Assembly: GCF_000521505.1 (NCBI RefSeq)
Contig: NZ_CP003915.1
Location: 2,480,001 to 2,544,000, forward strand
Reading direction: 5' to 3'
DNA: 64,000 nt
Origin: Advenella mimigardefordensis DPN7
GTDB lineage: Bacteria > Pseudomonadota > Gammaproteobacteria > Burkholderiales > Burkholderiaceae_B
Shown piece by piece: positions 9,372 to 42,268 of the stretch; within the stretch, counting starts at the first letter, position 1, and every line of letters begins with the position of its first letter. The position numbers and the translations under genes are program-made. The notes under the pieces are model-generated. The model was not told where the DNA came from and did no database searches. It worked only from the letters and a program-made list of their open reading frames with translations.

Positions 9372-9731
9372 TCAGGCGCCCAGGGCAGATTTGGCCTGTT
9401 TGACAACAGCGGCAAAACCCGCTTTGTCGTGGACAGCCATATCAGCCAGAACCTTGCGGTCCAGTTCAATAGCGGCCTTTTTCAGTCCGGCGATAAATAC
9501 ACTGTAAGTCATGCCGTTTTCACGGACTGCCGCGTTGATACGGGTAATCCAGAGAGCACGGAATGTACGTTTCTTATTGCGACGGTCACGATATGCATAC
9601 TGACCAGCACGCATGACTGCCTGTTTGGCAATACGGAACACATTGCCGCGGCGGCCACGATAGCCTTTAGCTGCAGCAATAACTTTTTTGTGACGAGCAC
9701 GTGCGGTAACACCGCGTTTTACGCGAGGCAT
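9372..9731 (-). CDS. rplT: 50S ribosomal protein L20
   Basis: The 119-residue basic protein matches L20 end to end ([62 protein letters not shown]). It binds 23S rRNA early in large-subunit assembly, and in many bacteria it represses its own operon. It follows rpmI by 13 bases, the normal arrangement. Confidence 0.98.
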
Positions 9732-17875: not shown

Positions 17876-18835
17876 TCAAACTGCGGCAGCTTTTTCGAGC
17901 GCAGCAGCAAAATGGTCAGCAACATCAAAATCTGTCTGTTCTGTAATTTCAACAAAGCAGGTCGGGCTGGTTACGTTGATTTCGGTGACATAGTCTCCGA
18001 TCACGTCCAGGCCAACCAGCAACAGCCCACGTTCCCTCAGTATAGGACCAATCCGGTTGGCGATGGCAAAATCGTGCTCGGAAAGCTTGCGAGCGACACC
18101 ACGCCCGCCAGCGGCCAGATTACCCCGGGTTTCGCCGGCCAGCGGTATACGGGCCAGCGCATAAGGAACAGGCGTTCCGTCAATCAGCAGAATACGCTTG
18201 TCGCCCTGCACGATTTCAGGAATATACTTTTGGGCCATGATGGTTTGCGTCTGATCTACCGTCAGGGTTTCCAGAATGGCATTCACATTCGGGTCGTTTT
18301 CCGTGATTCGGAAAATACCGGTACCGCCCATGCCGTCCAGCGGCTTGACGATGATATCGCCATGCAATGCATGAAACGCCTTCAGACGGGACATGGTGCT
18401 GGTAATAAGCGTGGGTGCGGTAAATTCAGCAAACTCGGTAATTGCCAATTTCTCGGGATGATTGCGTATGGCACTGCCCGAATTGAATACCCGTGCCCCC
18501 TGCCTTTGCGCCGTCTCCAGCAAATGCGTGGAATACAGATACTCCATATCGAACGGTGGATCCTTACGCATCAGCACCGCATCGAAATGGTTCACTTCGG
18601 TTTCGACCGCATTCTCTTCCTGCGTCCACCAGCTGTGGGCATGCAAATCCGCCTCCATATCCAGCTGGATAGGCTGCGCACGTACTTTTACCCGACCCAG
18701 CTCAACATACAGGTCAGACTGGAGCGCAACGCTGATAACATGGCCACGTTTATGCAAGGCCCGCATCATCGCTACCGAACTGTCCTTATATGCCTTCAGC
18801 AAAGGCAGCGGATCAATAATAAAAAGTACATGCAT
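17876..18835 (-). CDS. gshB: Glutathione synthetase
   Basis: The 319-residue ATP-grasp enzyme joins gamma-glutamylcysteine and glycine. It begins MHVLFIIDPLPLLKAYKDSS, the family N-terminus, and contains the ATP-binding DIIVKPLDGMGGTGIFR and the C-terminal GLLLVGLDVIGDYVTEINVTSPTC. The start at 18835 follows this homology; the longer in-frame upstream stretch overlaps infC and reads as non-coding. The partner gshA is not in this window. It sits between infC (49-base gap) and the PTS genes, probably co-transcribed with both. Confidence 0.95.
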   Translation of the reverse strand: MHVLFIIDPLPLLKAYKDSSVAMMRALHKRGHVISVALQSDLYVELGRVKVRAQPIQLDMEADLHAHSWWTQEENAVETEVNHFDAVLMRKDPPFDMEYLYSTHLLETAQRQGARVFNSGSAIRNHPEKLAITEFAEFTAPTLITSTMSRLKAFHALHGDIIVKPLDGMGGTGIFRITENDPNVNAILETLTVDQTQTIMAQKYIPEIVQGDKRILLIDGTPVPYALARIPLAGETRGNLAAGGRGVARKLSEHDFAIANRIGPILRERGLLLVGLDVIGDYVTEINVTSPTCFVEITEQTDFDVADHFAAALEKAAAV

Positions 18836-18884
18836 CTGATTTACATCCCACATTGACGACGGAAGCGTATTGGCAGTCCGCGTG

Positions 18885-19433
18885 TTATTTATCGTCGGCT
18901 TTGCCGGTAGTAACAGCCTTGCGCTTAGGCGCCAGGACCATAACCATCTGCCGGCCTTCCAGCTTGGGCATGGCTTCAACCTGCACCAGCTCTGCCATAT
19001 CGTCACGAACCCGTTCCAGAACACGCATACCCAGTTCCTGGTGTGCCATTTCACGTCCACGGAAGCGCAGGGTTACCTTGGCCTTATCGCCATCCTCAAT
19101 AAAACGCTTCAGGTTACGCAGCTTAACCTGATAGTCGCCTTCATCGGTCGCCGGGCGGAATTTAACTTCCTTAACCTGAATAATTTTCTGTTTGGCCTTG
19201 GCTTCCTGCTGACGCTTTTGTTCCTGATACTTGAACTTGCCGTAATCCATGATACGGCATACGGGCGGTTCCGCGTTCGGCGCGATTTCAACTAAATCAA
19301 CGCCTTCCTGCTCAGCCAGACGCAAGGCTTCTACTGTTTTAACAATACCCAGTTGTTCGCCGTCTACGCCGATCAGTCGGATTTCCGGAATACGGATTTC
19401 GGCGTTGATACGATTGGTTTTTTCGGTTGCGAT
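18885..19433 (-). CDS. infC: Translation initiation factor IF-3 (AUC start)
   Basis: The 182-residue protein has both IF-3 domains: the N-terminal block [23 protein letters not shown] and the C-terminal block [24 protein letters not shown]...[14 protein letters not shown]. The family's N-terminus (ATEKTNRIN) is preceded by an ATC codon at 19433-19431, with AGGAG 8 bases upstream, and no ATG, GTG or TTG fits. An AUC start is consistent with the unusual AUU/AUC/AUA starts of infC, which let IF-3 repress its own translation. thrS ends 25 bases upstream. Confidence 0.93.
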
Positions 19434-19458
19434 GTTAAGATCTCCTGAAATGAATAAA

Positions 19459-21393
19459 CTACGCCGAGACATCCTGACGTGTAGCAACGTCATGACGCAG
19501 GCGTTCTATAAATGCGTCTACAGACATGGTTCCCAGATCCAGGTTACCGCGGGCACGAACCGCGACAGCACCGCTGTCACGCTCTTTTTCGCCAACAACC
19601 AGAATGTAAGGAACCTTCTGCATACTGTTTTCCCTGATTTTACGGGTGATTTTTTCACCGCGCAAATCAGATGAAGCACGGAAACCGTGTTTTTTCAATG
19701 TGTCGACCACTTCGGTGGCGTAATCCGAGAAGGATTCGGATATGGTGCACACCACCACCTGCTCGGGAGCCAGCCAGGGAGGCATGGCACCGGCATGGTT
19801 CTCGATGAGCATACCAATGAAGCGCTCCAGCGAGCCCAGAATGGCACGATGCAACATGACCGGGGTTTTGCGCTGATCGTGAGCATCGACATACTCCGCG
19901 CCAAGCCGCACAGGCATTGAGAAATCGACCTGGATGGTGCCGCATTGCCAGTGACGGCCGATGGCGTCCTTAAGCGTATATTCCACTTTGGGACCGTAAA
20001 ACGCGCCCTCTCCCGGCGAGATTTCAAACTCACACCCGGAGCTGCGCAGACTTTCCATCAGGGCATGCTCTGCCTTGTCCCAAACCGCATCTTCGCCGAT
20101 ACGCTTTTCAGGGCGGGTAGCCACTTTGTAGAGGACTTCAGTAAAGCCAAAATCCTTGTACACTTTTTGCAACAGTGTTGTGAATTGGGCACACTCGGCC
20201 AGCAATTGGTCTTCGGTACAGAAAATATGTCCGTCGTCCTGGGTAAAGCCACGCACCCGCATCATGCCATGCAGGGAACCGGAGGGCTCATTGCGATGAC
20301 ACTGGCCGAACTCCCCATAGCGAATCGGCAATTCCCTGTAGGAATGCAACCCGGCATTATAAATTTGCACGTGTCCGGGGCAGTTCATGGGCTTGAGCCC
20401 ATAAATGCGGTTCTCGGACTCTGTTGTGAACATATTCTCTTTGTAATTGTCCCAGTGGCCGGTTTTTTTCCACAGGCTCAGGTCCAGAATTTGCGGCGCT
20501 TTCACTTCCTGATAGCCGTTATCTCGGTACACGTCGCGCATATACTGCTCGACCTGTTGCCAGATCTGCCAGCCTTTGGGGTGCCAGAAAATCAGCCCCG
20601 GCGCCTCGTCCTGAAAGTGGAACAGATCCAGTTCCCGACCCAGCTTGCGGTGGTCACGTTTTTCTGCTTCCTCCAGCATAGTCAGGTATGCGGCCTGCTC
20701 ATCCTTGGTTGCCCAGGCGGTGCCATAAACACGCTGCAGCATTTCGTTCTTGCTGTCACCGCGCCAGTAGGCGCCGGCGACTTTCATCAGCTTGAATACC
20801 CGGAGCTTGCCGGTAGAGGGCACATGCGGGCCACGACAGAGGTCGACAAAGTCCCCTTCCCGGTACAGAGATATTTTCTGATCCTGCGGGATTGAAGCAA
20901 TGATTTCGGCTTTATAGGCTTCGCCCTGCGCCTTGAAAAAGGCCACCGCATCGTCGCGTGCCCACTCTTCCCGAACCACTTTTTCGTCTTTCCTGGCCAG
21001 CTCAGCCATCTTTTTCTCGATTTTTTCCAGATCTTCGGGCGTGAACGGACGTTTGTAGGAAAAGTCGTAATAAAAGCCATTGTCAATAACCGGACCAATG
21101 GTGACCTGCGCATCAGGAAACAGGGATTTGACAGCATAGGCCAGCAAGTGAGCGGTCGAATGACGGATAATATCCAGACCGTCTGCGTCTTTGGCCGTCA
21201 CAATGGCAAGGTCGGCATCCTGGTCGATCACAAAGGAGGTATCCACCAGTTGCGGCTCGTTCCCATTGATTGTCACCTTACCAGCCAGCGCCGCCTTACC
21301 CAGGCTGGGCGCGATAGTCGTCGCAATCTCTCCTACCTGAATCGGTTGGGAAAATTCACGCTTGGAACCATCGGGTAAAGTAATTTGAAACAT
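19459..21393 (-). CDS. thrS: Threonyl-tRNA synthetase
   Basis: The 644-residue protein is complete. It has the N-terminal TGS domain ([14 protein letters not shown]), the HxxxH editing domain ([20 protein letters not shown]) and the class II catalytic core. The zinc cysteine lies in [10 protein letters not shown], motif 2 in [25 protein letters not shown], and a C-terminal anticodon-binding domain ([21 protein letters not shown]) ends the protein. The ATG at 21393 is preceded by AAGG and matches the family start; the longer frame reads through a terminator. Upstream is a probable threonine attenuator. It leads the thrS-infC-gshB-PTS row. Confidence 0.97.
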
Positions 21394-21412
21394 GCTGTTG
21401 CCTTGAGTTGAA

Positions 21413-21441
21413 TAAAAAAACGCGACTTCACAAGTCGCGTT
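21413..21441 (-). terminator. Intrinsic terminator/attenuator stem in the thrS leader
   Basis: On the minus strand the 10-bp perfect stem AACGCGACTT / AAGTCGCGTT with a 3-base loop is followed by seven T, only about 20 bases before the thrS start and its AAGG. A terminator here would shut off thrS, so it makes sense only as a conditional one. Its 5' arm (CGAACGCG at 21443-21436) can pair instead with CGCGCTCG at 21485-21478. Confidence 0.8.
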
Positions 21442-21474
21442 CGCTGTTCTTTTAAAAATTACGTTTGGCAAGAA

Positions 21475-21549
21475 TCACGAGCGCGCTGGTAGACCGATAC
21501 ACGTATCGGTGGTTGTCAGGCTCTGGGTTCGTGAAGCGTCGGACATCAT
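21475..21549 (-). CDS. Threonine-rich leader peptide of thrS (attenuation)
   Basis: A 24-codon ORF on the minus strand starts ATG-ATG and encodes MMSDASRTQS followed by LTTTDTCIGLPARS. Four of the five codons ACA-ACC-ACC-GAT-ACG (21516-21502) specify threonine. GGTGAG lies 9 bases upstream. An 8-bp hairpin (ACCGATAC / GTATCGGT, 21510-21493) overlaps the Thr codons. The last sense codons GCG-CGC-TCG overlap the candidate antiterminator strand, and the thrS-proximal terminator follows. This is the layout of ribosome-mediated attenuation leaders such as thrL. Confidence 0.7.
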   Translation of the reverse strand: MMSDASRTQSLTTTDTCIGLPARS

Positions 21550-21584
21550 CAAAACAGTCTCACCATTTCGTAAAATACCTCGTG

Positions 21585-21614
21585 ATTTTACACCAGCCCC
21601 GAGCCTATAGCCAA
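21585..21614 (-). promoter_or_regulatory. Candidate promoter of the thrS leader
   Basis: On the minus strand TTGGCT (21614-21609) and TAAAAT (21590-21585) are separated by 18 bases. Transcription would begin about 30 bases before the leader peptide and give a leader RNA of roughly 185 bases. An overlapping alternative (TTGCGA with CTATAG further upstream) cannot be excluded. Confidence 0.4.
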
Positions 21615-21798
21615 TAAATGGCTACAATTCGCAAAAAATCAAGAGATATCGTACCCTTAAAAGCACAACTGTCGCCCGGCTGACGGTGCAATGATGGCCG
21701 GTTTCATTGAAAATGACCTGTTGCAGTATATTAATCTTCACCCTTTTTCGCCTGAGCCATGCTAGGCTTGTGGCCAGATTTCACTATCCGGAGTACCT

Positions 21799-23491: not shown

Positions 23492-24862
23492 TCATGAGAG
23501 ACGAGGCAGACCCAGGTTATCGAACCACGCGATCGTCAGCACACTATTGAGCAGCTTGCCACTGTTGCGCCACCAGCGACGGCTGTTGGCCGCCACGCGG
23601 TGTGCTACTGTCACACTAGCACCTAGAGTGCGTAGCTCACGGAACATCGTTTTACCGCGTTTCCACTGTTTGAGCTGGATTGCCCGTAACCGGTGACGTA
23701 TCCATTCCTCCAGTGTTTGCCAGAGTTTTTGGGATTGCGCCAGCCGGAAGTAGCCCTTCCAACCCAGCATGTAGGCACGCAACCTGTCCACCACATCCTG
23801 CATACTGCGTCCGCCCAAGCGGCGCGTCAATTGTCGCACGCGTTGCTTGAACGCCATCACGGCCTTGGTCGCCACTCGGCGCTTGACCACGCCCTTGGGG
23901 GCCATCCAGAAGCTGTAACCCAGGAATTTGCGACCCGTAAATACACTGGCAACCGCGCTTTTGGTTTCATTGACCTTCAGGCGTAGTCTAGCGTATAACT
24001 GTCGCAGCAGGTTCATTACCCGTTCACCGGCACGGCGACTGCGAACGTAGACGTTGCAATCGTCAGCGTAGCGAACGAAGCAATGACCCCTGCGTTCCAG
24101 CTCCTTGTCCACCTCATCGAGCATCACGTTGGCCAGCAACGGCGAGAGCGGTCCGCCTTGCGGCGTGCCCTCGTGCCGCTCGATCACCACACCGCTATCC
24201 ATAATGCCGCTATTCAGATACGCACGGATCAGCCGGATCACGCCGGCATCAGCAATGCGTTTCTGTAAGCGATTAATCAGGATGTCGTGGTTGACCCGGT
24301 CGAAGAACTTCTCCAGATCCACGTCCACCACGATACGGCGGCCGGACTGCACATACGACTGAGCGGCAAGCACCGCATCATGCGCCCGCCTGCCCGGTCT
24401 GAAGCCGTAGCTGTGTTCGCTGAAGGTGGGGTCAAGGATGGGTTGCAGCACTTGCAGTAGTGCTTGCTGGATCAGGCGATCCGTTACCGTCGGAATACCC
24501 AGCTCGCGCTGGCTACCGTCAGGCTTGGGTATCATTACCCGTCGTACCGGGCTGGGCCGGTACTTACCTGTCAGCAACGCCTCCCGGATGGCAGGCCAGG
24601 CGCTCACCAGGTGGTGGGCAGTCTGATCAATGTCCAGACCATCCACCCCGGCTGCTCCTTTATTGGCTCGCACCCGCTTGAACGCGGCTTGCAGGTTCTC
24701 TCTTGTCAGCGCCGCTTGCAGCAGCGCTGACCCCGTATCCTCATTGCCATATCGCGGACTCCTTGTTTCCTCGCTGACAGGATCACCGGCGGCTTCACCG
24801 CCAACTACACCCGTCCGCTCCGCTGGGGCAGTCATCTGAGGCACTACAAGTTGTATCGACAT
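23492..24862 (-). CDS. ltrA: Group II intron reverse transcriptase/maturase
   Basis: The 456-residue protein has the reverse transcriptase domain (about 75-310) with RT motifs including SYGFRPGRRAHDAV, GTPQGGPLSPLLANVMLDE and the catalytic RYADD. The maturase X region follows (SMQDVVDRLRAYMLGWKGYFRLAQ), then a C-terminal GIM-type segment ending AWFDNLGLPRLS. No HNH endonuclease domain is present, as expected for class C introns. The enzyme splices the intron RNA and primes its insertion into DNA. The reading frame is uninterrupted and the active site intact, so the element may still be mobile. Confidence 0.95.
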   Translation of the reverse strand: MSIQLVVPQMTAPAERTGVVGGEAAGDPVSEETRSPRYGNEDTGSALLQAALTRENLQAAFKRVRANKGAAGVDGLDIDQTAHHLVSAWPAIREALLTGKYRPSPVRRVMIPKPDGSQRELGIPTVTDRLIQQALLQVLQPILDPTFSEHSYGFRPGRRAHDAVLAAQSYVQSGRRIVVDVDLEKFFDRVNHDILINRLQKRIADAGVIRLIRAYLNSGIMDSGVVIERHEGTPQGGPLSPLLANVMLDEVDKELERRGHCFVRYADDCNVYVRSRRAGERVMNLLRQLYARLRLKVNETKSAVASVFTGRKFLGYSFWMAPKGVVKRRVATKAVMAFKQRVRQLTRRLGGRSMQDVVDRLRAYMLGWKGYFRLAQSQKLWQTLEEWIRHRLRAIQLKQWKRGKTMFRELRTLGASVTVAHRVAANSRRWWRNSGKLLNSVLTIAWFDNLGLPRLS

Positions 24863-25267
24863 GTCGAGTAATACTCCTTCTCGTTCGGTCCTTCGTCGCT
24901 TCGACTCCGAACCTCCCCGATTCGGCTACCACGACTACTATGACCTCTGCTGAGTCCTCGCTCCGGTTCGACACCGTTACCCTTTCAGGATCAAGGCGAG
25001 GCTTCCCCAGATAAGAACGCACTCCTTCATCGCACAACCGCTGCATCTACGCCACTTCGCCTTGGTCACGAGAGCTTTGCGGTTTATGGCCCGCTCGCCC
25101 TGCTTGGCAGCGCCTTCTATGCAGTTCTTGTCCATCGGCTCGCGATTTACGCTTCACGCTTCCTTCCCACGCTCGGTCACCCTCACGCAGTTGCGCTTCA
25201 CTTCGCTCGTTGTGACCAACTCGCGGCGGGACTCGCACCCGCAGGAGTACGCCCATGCTGGGCGTAC
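24863..25267 (-). other. 5' structured region of the group II intron (domains I-IV)
   Basis: These 405 bases between the intron 5' end and the maturase start hold no separate gene. They are rich in complementary segments (GTACGCCCA / TGGGCGTAC; CTGCGGG / CCCGCCG region), as expected for domains I to III and the start of IV. Short ORFs here are incidental. Confidence 0.7.
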
Positions 25268-40556: not shown

Positions 40557-42268
40557 CAAGCATATCAAGACAGGCCTATGCCGAAATTTTTGGTCCTACG
40601 GTTGCCAACGACGTGGCCGATCGCGTCCGGCTTGCAGATACAGGGCTGATTGTGGAAGTGGAACAGGACTTCACCATCTTCGGTGAAGAAGTCAAATTTG
40701 GTGGTGGTAAAGTCATTCGCGACGGCATGGGACAAAGCCAGCGCTGTACGGCAGACTGCGCCGATACCGTCATCACCAACGCACTGATCATTGATGCTGT
40801 CACCGGTATTGTCAAAGCGGATATCGGCATCAAAAACGGCCATATCACGGGTATCGGCAAAGCCGGCAACCCTGACATCCAGCCCGGCGTTACCATCGTT
40901 ATCGGCCCCGGTACCGAAATTATTGCTGCCGAAGGCTTTATCGTTACCGCTGGCGGCATCGATACCCACATTCACTTTATCTGCCCGCAACAGATCGAAG
41001 AGGCAATCTCGTCGGGTATCACAACCATGATTGGCGGCGGCACCGGCCCCGCTACCGGCACGTTCGCGACCACCTGCACCCCGGGACCGTGGCATATCCA
41101 TGCCATGCTTGGCGCCACCGATGCCTTTGCGATGAATATCGGGCTGCTTGGCAAAGGCAATGCCAGCGCTGCAGAACCGCTACTGGAACAGATACAGGCC
41201 GGTGCGCTTGGCCTGAAACTGCATGAAGACTGGGGCACCACCCCACAAGCCATTGATACGTGTCTGAGTGTGGCCGACCAAACCGATACGCAAGTAGCCA
41301 TTCACAGCGATACCCTGAACGAATCGGGGTTTGTCGAAGCAACTCTGGCTGCCTTCAAGGGACGCACCATCCATACCTTCCATACCGAAGGCGCGGGCGG
41401 CGGTCATGCGCCCGATATTATTCGCGCCGCTGGCATACCCAATGTGCTGCCCGCCTCTACCAACCCCACCATGCCGTTCACCCATAATACGATTGACGAG
41501 CATCTGGACATGCTGATGGTTTGCCATCATCTGGATGCATCCATCGCCGAAGATCTGGCCTTTGCCGAAAGCCGCATTCGTCGGGAAACCATCGCGGCAG
41601 AAGACATTCTGCACGACCTTGGCGCCTTTTCGATCATGAGTTCCGACTCACAGGCCATGGGACGGGTGGGCGAAGTGATTCTGCGTACCTGGCAGACCGC
41701 CGACAAAATGAAGCAACAGCGCGGCAGCCTGGAGCAAGACTCCAGCCGTTCCGACAATAACCGCGTCAAACGCTTCATCGCCAAATACACCATCAATCCG
41801 GCGATTGCACATGGCATCGCCCATAAGGTCGGCTCCCTACAAAGCGGCAAACTGGCCGATCTTGTTTTGTGGCGACCCGCATTCTTTGGCGTCAAGCCCA
41901 GCCTGATTGTGAAAGGCGGCATGATTGCTCACGCCGTCATGGGCGATCCGAATGCGTCCATCCCTACGCCACAACCGGTGCACTATCGGAAAATGTTCGG
42001 CTCCTTCGGACGCGCGCTGAATACATCGCTGGCCTTTGTGTCCCAGGCCGGGCTGGACAACCCGGCCGTGCATGCCCTGGGCCTGCAAAAAACGCTCTGT
42101 GCCGTCAGCGGCTGCCGCAATATTGGCAAGCGCGATATGGTGCGCAATGACTGGCTACCCGATATCCGGGTTGATCCGCAAACCTATCAGGTGTTTGCCG
42201 ATGGCCAGCTCCTGCGTTGCGAACCGGCAAAAACCTTGCCCATGTCGCAGCGCTACTTTCTATTCTGA
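40553..42268 (+). CDS. ureC: Urease alpha subunit (catalytic)
   Basis: The 571-residue nickel amidohydrolase splits urea into ammonia and carbamate. All active-site residues are visible. His139 and His141 are in DTHIHFICP, and the carbamylated Lys222 with His224 in [10 protein letters not shown]. The next nickel His is in [12 protein letters not shown], then [16 protein letters not shown], the flap MVCHHLD and the nickel Asp in [14 protein letters not shown]. Numbering is offset by about five from Klebsiella UreC. The enzyme should be functional once nickel is inserted by UreDEFG. Confidence 0.98.

Follow-up and report, generated by a model that had tools for sequence, protein, structure and literature searches.

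Judging from leader sequences and modelled RNA pairing, the thrS gene of Advenella mimigardefordensis DPN7 is very probably controlled by a ribosome-mediated transcription attenuator. The initial annotation had proposed such control, and the proposal is supported by the conservation of the leaders and by a pairing that, in the model, depends on the position of the ribosome. All features of the leader region described here are on the minus strand of the window, the whole stretch of 64,000 nucleotides that was analyzed. The gene encodes threonine--tRNA ligase (19459-21393; TIGR00418, 722.6 bits, cut-off 383.65), starts with the ATG at 21393, and occurs once at full length in the 4.76 Mb genome. 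The TTG at 21471 was set aside as its start, because the open frame has just 644 residues in four genus relatives (86% identity).

An ORF of 24 codons and a TGA, encoding the peptide MMSDASRTQSLTTTDTCIGLPARS, is present at 21549-21475, as annotated initially. A Shine-Dalgarno-like GGTGAG (21564-21559) lies 9 nt 5′ of the first leader ATG, in agreement with the ribosome binding site thought plausible there. The Thr cluster is found as described, with Thr at codons 12, 13, 14, and 16 in the run ACA ACC ACC GAT ACG (codons 12-16, 21516-21502), and an additional Thr at codon 8 gives five in the window leader. The position of codon 8 should be noted, since it follows the rare Arg codon CGA, and this CGA-ACC pair (21531-21526) is the conserved core of the leader family. 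The hairpin that had been seen across the Thr codons, ACCGATAC GT GTATCGGT (21510-21493), appears in the computed fold and is nearly invariant among the six nearest genomes. A consensus scan places a probable promoter, TTGGCT-18-TAAAAT (9/12 matches), at 21614-21585.

Between the leader and thrS, an intrinsic terminator is formed by an 11-pair stem (21442-21418; hairpin −14.4 kcal/mol) and a T run to about 21412, which matches the strong terminator reported some 20 bases ahead of the ATG at 21393. The claimed pairing of CGCGCTCG in the last leader codons with CGAACGCG in the terminator 5′ arm holds (7 of 8), and the optimal antiterminator duplex is longer than claimed, joining 21491-21470 to 21451-21429 at −20.1 kcal/mol as a duplex, compared with −14.4 kcal/mol for the terminator hairpin. 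By duplex energy, the 5′ strand of the antiterminator (region 2, 21491-21470) holds the leader stop codon, and the 3′ strand (region 3, 21451-21429) overlaps the terminator 5′ arm. Region 1, TCACGA (21534-21529), can pair with TCGTGA at 21480-21475 in the full-length fold, though its pairing probability without a ribosome is 0.0 once region 3 is present. Taken singly, the window sequence gives weak evidence. The whole-leader fold has z = −0.37, with 73 of 200 shuffles equally good, and 27 of 100 shuffled spacers equal the window antiterminator (L081) in pairing with the terminator arm. Neither is better than shuffles; the case rests on comparison, where its strength lies.

In the proposed mechanism, RNA polymerase would start near 21578, and a ribosome would trail it on the leader ORF. 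When charged tRNA-Thr is scarce, the ribosome would slow at the Thr codons (21528-21502) and leave region 2 available for pairing with region 3; the terminator would then be blocked, and transcription would run into thrS. When charged tRNA-Thr is plentiful, the ribosome would reach the stop codon and cover region 2, the terminator would form, and transcription would end about 20 nt ahead of thrS. The gene would in this way respond to threonine starvation. As a refinement, the rare CGA beside the core Thr codon may slow the ribosome and sharpen the response of the sensor.

We compared 313 thrS upstream regions, comprising 10 from the genus, 108 from the family, 80 named, 66 from the order, and 49 from the class; the sets overlap partly (for example, L001 is the L089 genome, and L002 the L099 genome), so that totals such as 158 and 108 given below count some genomes twice. 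L093 was left out as the same genome as L092, and one class region shorter than 150 nt was omitted from the leader count, leaving 48. A thrS match was absent from 1 of 121 family, 2 of 110 order, and 8 of 104 class genomes, and 7, 38, and 46 matched genomes, respectively, are outside the comparison. In the genus relative G004, thrS appears as two overlapping matches with an internal TGA (G004:C1:2205562-2207492; L092 and L093), which is either a frame break or an assembly error.

A Thr-rich leader, defined as a short ORF with at least three Thr in five codons, precedes thrS in 10/10 genus, 69/108 family, 44/80 named, 17/66 order, and 3/48 class regions, where the maxima of ten shuffles are 2, 10, 6, 5, and 5, respectively. 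The class sample outside the order is thus at chance, and one or two of the 17 order matches, which extend across a tRNA gene, seem accidental (L125 and L263). Within the family, three in five is less frequent for other residues (A 21, V 13, P 7, G 15, and R 25 of 108). Genera with Thr-rich leaders include Achromobacter, Bordetella, Pusillimonas, Massilia, Janthinobacterium, Ralstonia, Roseateles, and Leptothrix. Alignment of the relatives' upstream regions, the check suggested initially, shows Thr-rich leaders and the alternative pairing to be conserved well beyond the genus. From these sequences, we read a Thr attenuator before thrS as widespread in Betaproteobacteria.

Within the genus, the Thr codons 8, 12, 13, and 16 are kept in all six nearest genomes, and codon 14 is kept in five, with Ser in one. 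Synonymous changes occur at leader codons 9, 12, 13, and 21, among them third-base changes inside the conserved Thr codons 12 and 13, and residue changes occur at codons 4, 10, 14, 17, 20, and 22. The sister clade (G001, G002, G006, and G009; G006 is A. mandrilli) has a shorter leader with ...LTARTT... and pairs TAGTCGCG with CGCGACTA, L088 having CGCGGCTA instead. The window clade keeps CGA-ACC, has Gln in place of the second core Thr, carries the LTTTDT run and the hairpin downstream, and ends its leader at a TGA within region 2; its Thr run, stop codon, and antiterminator all differ from those of the sister clade. The sister clade and other genera share the core CGA-ACT-ACG, so the window-clade leader looks rebuilt by sequence, with CGA-ACT-ACG as the older arrangement. 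The Thr run picked out initially is conserved among the nearest genomes but looks like a clade-specific relocation.

The core is more widely kept. An ATG ORF with an in-frame CGA-Thr precedes thrS in 10/10 genus, 73/108 family, 54/80 named, 21/66 order, and 0/48 class regions (shuffle maxima 1, 10, 7, 3, and 3), and every other Arg codon in this position gives at most 6 in any set, although some CGA-Thr matches look accidental, for example L146, whose ORF starts in a tRNA. At all 108 of its places, duplicates included, the 8-mer CGAACTAC shares its frame with a short ORF that starts at ATG or GTG. Among 107 strict leaders, 101 remain after identical ones are dropped, and Arg precedes a Thr in 100 of these (CGA 96, CGG 4), with ACT as the following Thr codon in 84. 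Because selection of the strict set gave preference to R or K ahead of Thr, the Arg frequency in it is biased, while the codon choice is not. Without the R/K rule, 38 of 123 distinct clusters have Arg immediately ahead of their first Thr (CGA 36, CGG 2), a lower figure because many leaders have Thr flanking the Arg on both sides. For comparison, CGA makes up 3.8% of 5863 Arg codons and ACT 9.2% of 3837 Thr codons in the thrS genes of the longer loci, where CGC and CGT together reach 79% of the Arg codons, and CGA accounts for 4 of 148 Arg codons in five longer window genes. CGA is also raised at the other Arg positions of these leaders, though far less (21 of 126; CGC 47, CGT 25, CGG 23, AGG 6, and AGA 4). 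A Cys follows soon after the core, as RTC or RTTTCC, in L262, L267, L274, L276, L200, L185, and L210.

The CGA codon might be kept for RNA pairing or for decoding. Pairing with region 2 is not favoured as its cause, since CGA-ACT ranks only 12th of 16 synonymous choices by mean spacer duplex energy and the A of CGA is often unpaired in the model. In CGAACTA, bases A2-A6 are strongly conserved with a modelled pairing of just 0.41-0.52, compared with 0.79 for C0 and 0.87 for G1. The A is unpaired (below 0.1 in two contexts) in 39 leaders, all 39 with CGA, and paired above 0.7 in 36, of which 32 have CGA and 4 CGG. Other Arg codons barely alter the predicted switch in most of nine genus leaders, the largest shifts being those at the stop position with CGC (window, 0.07 to 0.33; L088, 0.04 to 0.27). 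An RNA constraint nevertheless keeps some weight, as the core forms a stronger duplex with its own spacer (−8.76) than with shuffled spacers (−7.09). TAGTCG occurs in 22 of 100 spacers (shuffles 1.5) and GTCG in 63 of 100 (shuffles 23.7).

A decoding role for CGA is plausible. Among the 39 tRNA genes found in the genome, all typed, the Arg anticodons are ACG, CCG, UCU, and CCU; since tRNA-Arg(UCG) is absent from these, CGA should be read by an inosine-34 tRNA-Arg, which is given as the general rule in the accessible part of PMC10454642. Through the I·A wobble, CGA would slow or distort the ribosome as the next Thr codon comes up, so that a few Thr codons could do the job of the seven His codons in the his leader. 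That leader works by alternative pairing that depends on ribosome position, and in Salmonella CGA in it strongly stalls the ribosome and raises readthrough, CGU and CGC being translated significantly faster (PMC4046918, in the portion available). CGA-CGA has been employed as a slow pair (PMC11805395, accessible sections), whereas B. subtilis lacZ translation is described as not impeded by CGA codons (PMC10454642, same part). Tentatively, and with considerable doubt, the CGA-ACN pair can be regarded as the most constant element of the attenuator, above the Thr run, and its CGA as a built-in sensitizer; the raised share of CGA at the other Arg positions of the leaders (21 of 126) and the possible RNA constraint count against this.

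The same conservation bears on an alternative in which the leader senses generally slow translation or the supply of arginine through CGA, and not threonine. In 158 leaders with CGA-Thr, the next five codons contain one Thr in 12, two in 45, and at least three in 101. The pair is thus kept even in the 12 leaders with a single Thr there, as this alternative would have it, and the readthrough raised by CGA in the Salmonella his leader (PMC4046918, available portion) points the same way. Against it, 101 of the 158 leaders retain at least three Thr in these five codons, and the controlled gene is thrS itself. We consider arginine or general sensing unlikely, and threonine sensing remains our preferred reading.

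The dependence on ribosome position was evaluated with a switch model, in which the transcript was folded to the terminator loop and the pairing of the terminator 5′ arm with upstream RNA was scored for three situations, namely no ribosome, a ribosome at each of the core Thr codons, and a ribosome at the leader stop. Over the 101 leaders, mean antiterminator pairing is 0.590 at the Thr codons, 0.148 at the stop, and 0.267 without a ribosome, compared with 0.466, 0.389, and 0.426 with shuffled spacers. Pairing at the Thr codons exceeds that at the stop in 93/101 leaders and that without a ribosome in 83/101. The difference between Thr and stop is 0.442 in real leaders and 0.055-0.116 across ten shuffles. 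Both contrasts are larger than 0.3 in 49/101 leaders (1-9 in shuffles), and the other 52 do not have both. The best helix with the terminator arm begins −14 to +8 nt from the end of the stop codon in 84/101 leaders, whereas shuffles place it there in 42 on average and 51 at most, and its mean score is 17.05 in contrast to at most 13.22 in any shuffle replicate. The paired letters near the leader stop codon differ on both sides between lineages, and the perfect helix is short in several of them (4 bp in the window). In the model, a ribosome at the stop codon accordingly shuts out the antiterminator, and one at a Thr codon lets it form.

The window leader gives 0.69 at the Thr codons and 0.07 at the stop. 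Codon by codon, the values are 0.77 at codons 12-14 and 0.13, 0.11, 0.42, 0.15, and 0.16 at codons 21-25. The state without a ribosome should be noted, since pairing is then also high (0.71-0.78), and the window clade as a whole gives 0.54-0.71 with no protector stem predicted. Contrarily, all three states are predicted in the sister-clade leaders L089, L090, and L091, where a predicted protector stem (1:2), which would allow termination when the leader is not translated, reduces the pairing without a ribosome to 0.01-0.04; L088 lacks three-state behaviour, at 0.98. The attenuation reading thus stands for the contrast between Thr and stop, while the window clade is predicted to be antiterminated even without a ribosome, suggesting that an untranslated leader may read through in this clade.

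The upstream context is consistent with transcription of the leader from its own promoter. Of the 118 genomes of the genus and family, 92 have the motif TGnTAn[AC][AC]T, an extended −10, within 300 nt, compared with 3-8 in shuffles. Among the 58 strict leaders of these groups, 51 have it ahead of the leader ATG, at a median of 35 nt; one of the 58 has it inside the leader or spacer as well, and none has it solely there. The seven of 58 without it include the window and its clade, which have a different −10 at the aligned place, the window promoter aligning with the extended −10 of the sister clade. A transcription start below the leader ORF, named at the outset as evidence against attenuation, is disfavoured by these motifs at the level of sequence.

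Another explanation is that the terminator acts simply as a fixed brake or is part of a different transcript, and that the Thr-rich ORF arose by chance or is a relict, and is not sensed. A terminator precedes thrS in 10/10 genus and 98/108 family regions, and 22 of the 118 keep it without a detectable leader, as expected of a fixed brake; a further 7 of the 118 have only a weak RT leader, and 10 have neither terminator nor leader. Those with a terminator and no detectable leader include L010, L194, L203, L215, L217, L221, and L228, and in some a promoter-like motif stands just before it. Likewise, a tRNA-Val(GAC) gene that could own the terminator is found on the same strand within 450 nt upstream in many more distant genomes (46 genes in 66 order regions; 31 genes in 49 class regions). 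However, no same-strand tRNA lies within 450 nt upstream in any of the 10 genus genomes, and the next upstream genes in the window are on the opposite strand. Thr-rich leaders are several-fold above shuffles in four of the five sets, and the modelled pairing varies with ribosome position, both of which speak against this explanation. We judge this explanation to be quite improbable, and attenuation remains preferred. Outside the family, the leader may be read from the tRNA-Val transcript.

The trp, thrABC, and pheST leaders are ribosome-mediated attenuators of enteric bacteria, and pheST exemplifies the principle for a synthetase gene. The present element resembles these and his in its leader ORF with sensed codons, its terminator, and its alternative pairing by ribosome position. 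It differs in the gene controlled, in having five Thr codons in the window compared with seven consecutive His codons in his, in the conserved non-cognate CGA beside the core Thr codon, and in the window clade lacking a predicted protector stem. We therefore read the mechanism as being of a known kind, the new features being thrS as the gene and the conserved CGA beside Thr.

Control of thrS is known in two other forms. In E. coli, ThrS represses translation of its own mRNA at an operator, and in Firmicutes, the thrS T-box is a terminator/antiterminator switch that answers tRNA charging by reading the tRNA directly. The present element has the controlled gene in common with the former and the switch in common with the latter. 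Although both forms are established elsewhere, either is most improbable here, since the thrS ATG follows the T run by roughly 20 nt, which leaves no room past the terminator for the multi-domain E. coli operator, and no T-box match is found up to E = 10 in 21350-21700. Autoregulation of E. coli ThrRS is also mentioned in the accessible part of PMC2965389.

Searches with the amino-acid leader families of Rfam gave no match at the gathering score in the window or in 19 relatives, and none up to E = 10 in 21350-21700; the leader also has no Pfam or NCBIfam match. Any earlier prediction of a thrS leader would be likeliest in Vitreschak 2004 and Lopatovskaya 2010. No description of a thrS leader in Betaproteobacteria was found in the partial literature covered, most subscription papers lying outside it, so priority is not established; the accessible parts of PMC2965389 and PMC4833913 name none. 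In B. cenocepacia, 82 attenuated or processed 5′ UTRs are reported in the available part of PMC5688073, and thrS may be among them. A match of the leader to ncS025 (RF02869), a family whose NcS25 is reportedly a regulator of a porin (PMC10117139), was dismissed as chance, as it reaches 14.1 bits against a gathering score of 46 and 12 further relatives gave nothing up to E = 1.

Several neighbouring features of the window were also observed. Behind a reverse transcriptase/maturase-like ORF at 23492-25186 on the minus strand lie matches to group II introns (RF02001 and RF01998). At 40714-41003 (minus strand), a 117-bit match to the 5′ ureB sRNA family (RF02514) probably reflects conservation of the coding sequence of ureB and not an sRNA. 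Next to thrS, a gshB-like gene comes directly after infC (17876-19493, minus strand), as in A. mandrilli (L001) and Achromobacter (L003), and rplT stands apart from infC at about 9390-9731.

If infC is co-transcribed with the adjoining thrS, IF3 would share the same control. If the CGA reading is true, these leaders hold a natural, widely retained, non-cognate slow codon in an attenuator, and codon-context tuning of sensing becomes testable. The window clade would exemplify the rebuilding of a sensor of this type. If the attenuator itself is right, it would add a third kind of thrS control to the E. coli operator and the T-box, one absent from the family libraries searched and present across many Betaproteobacteria.
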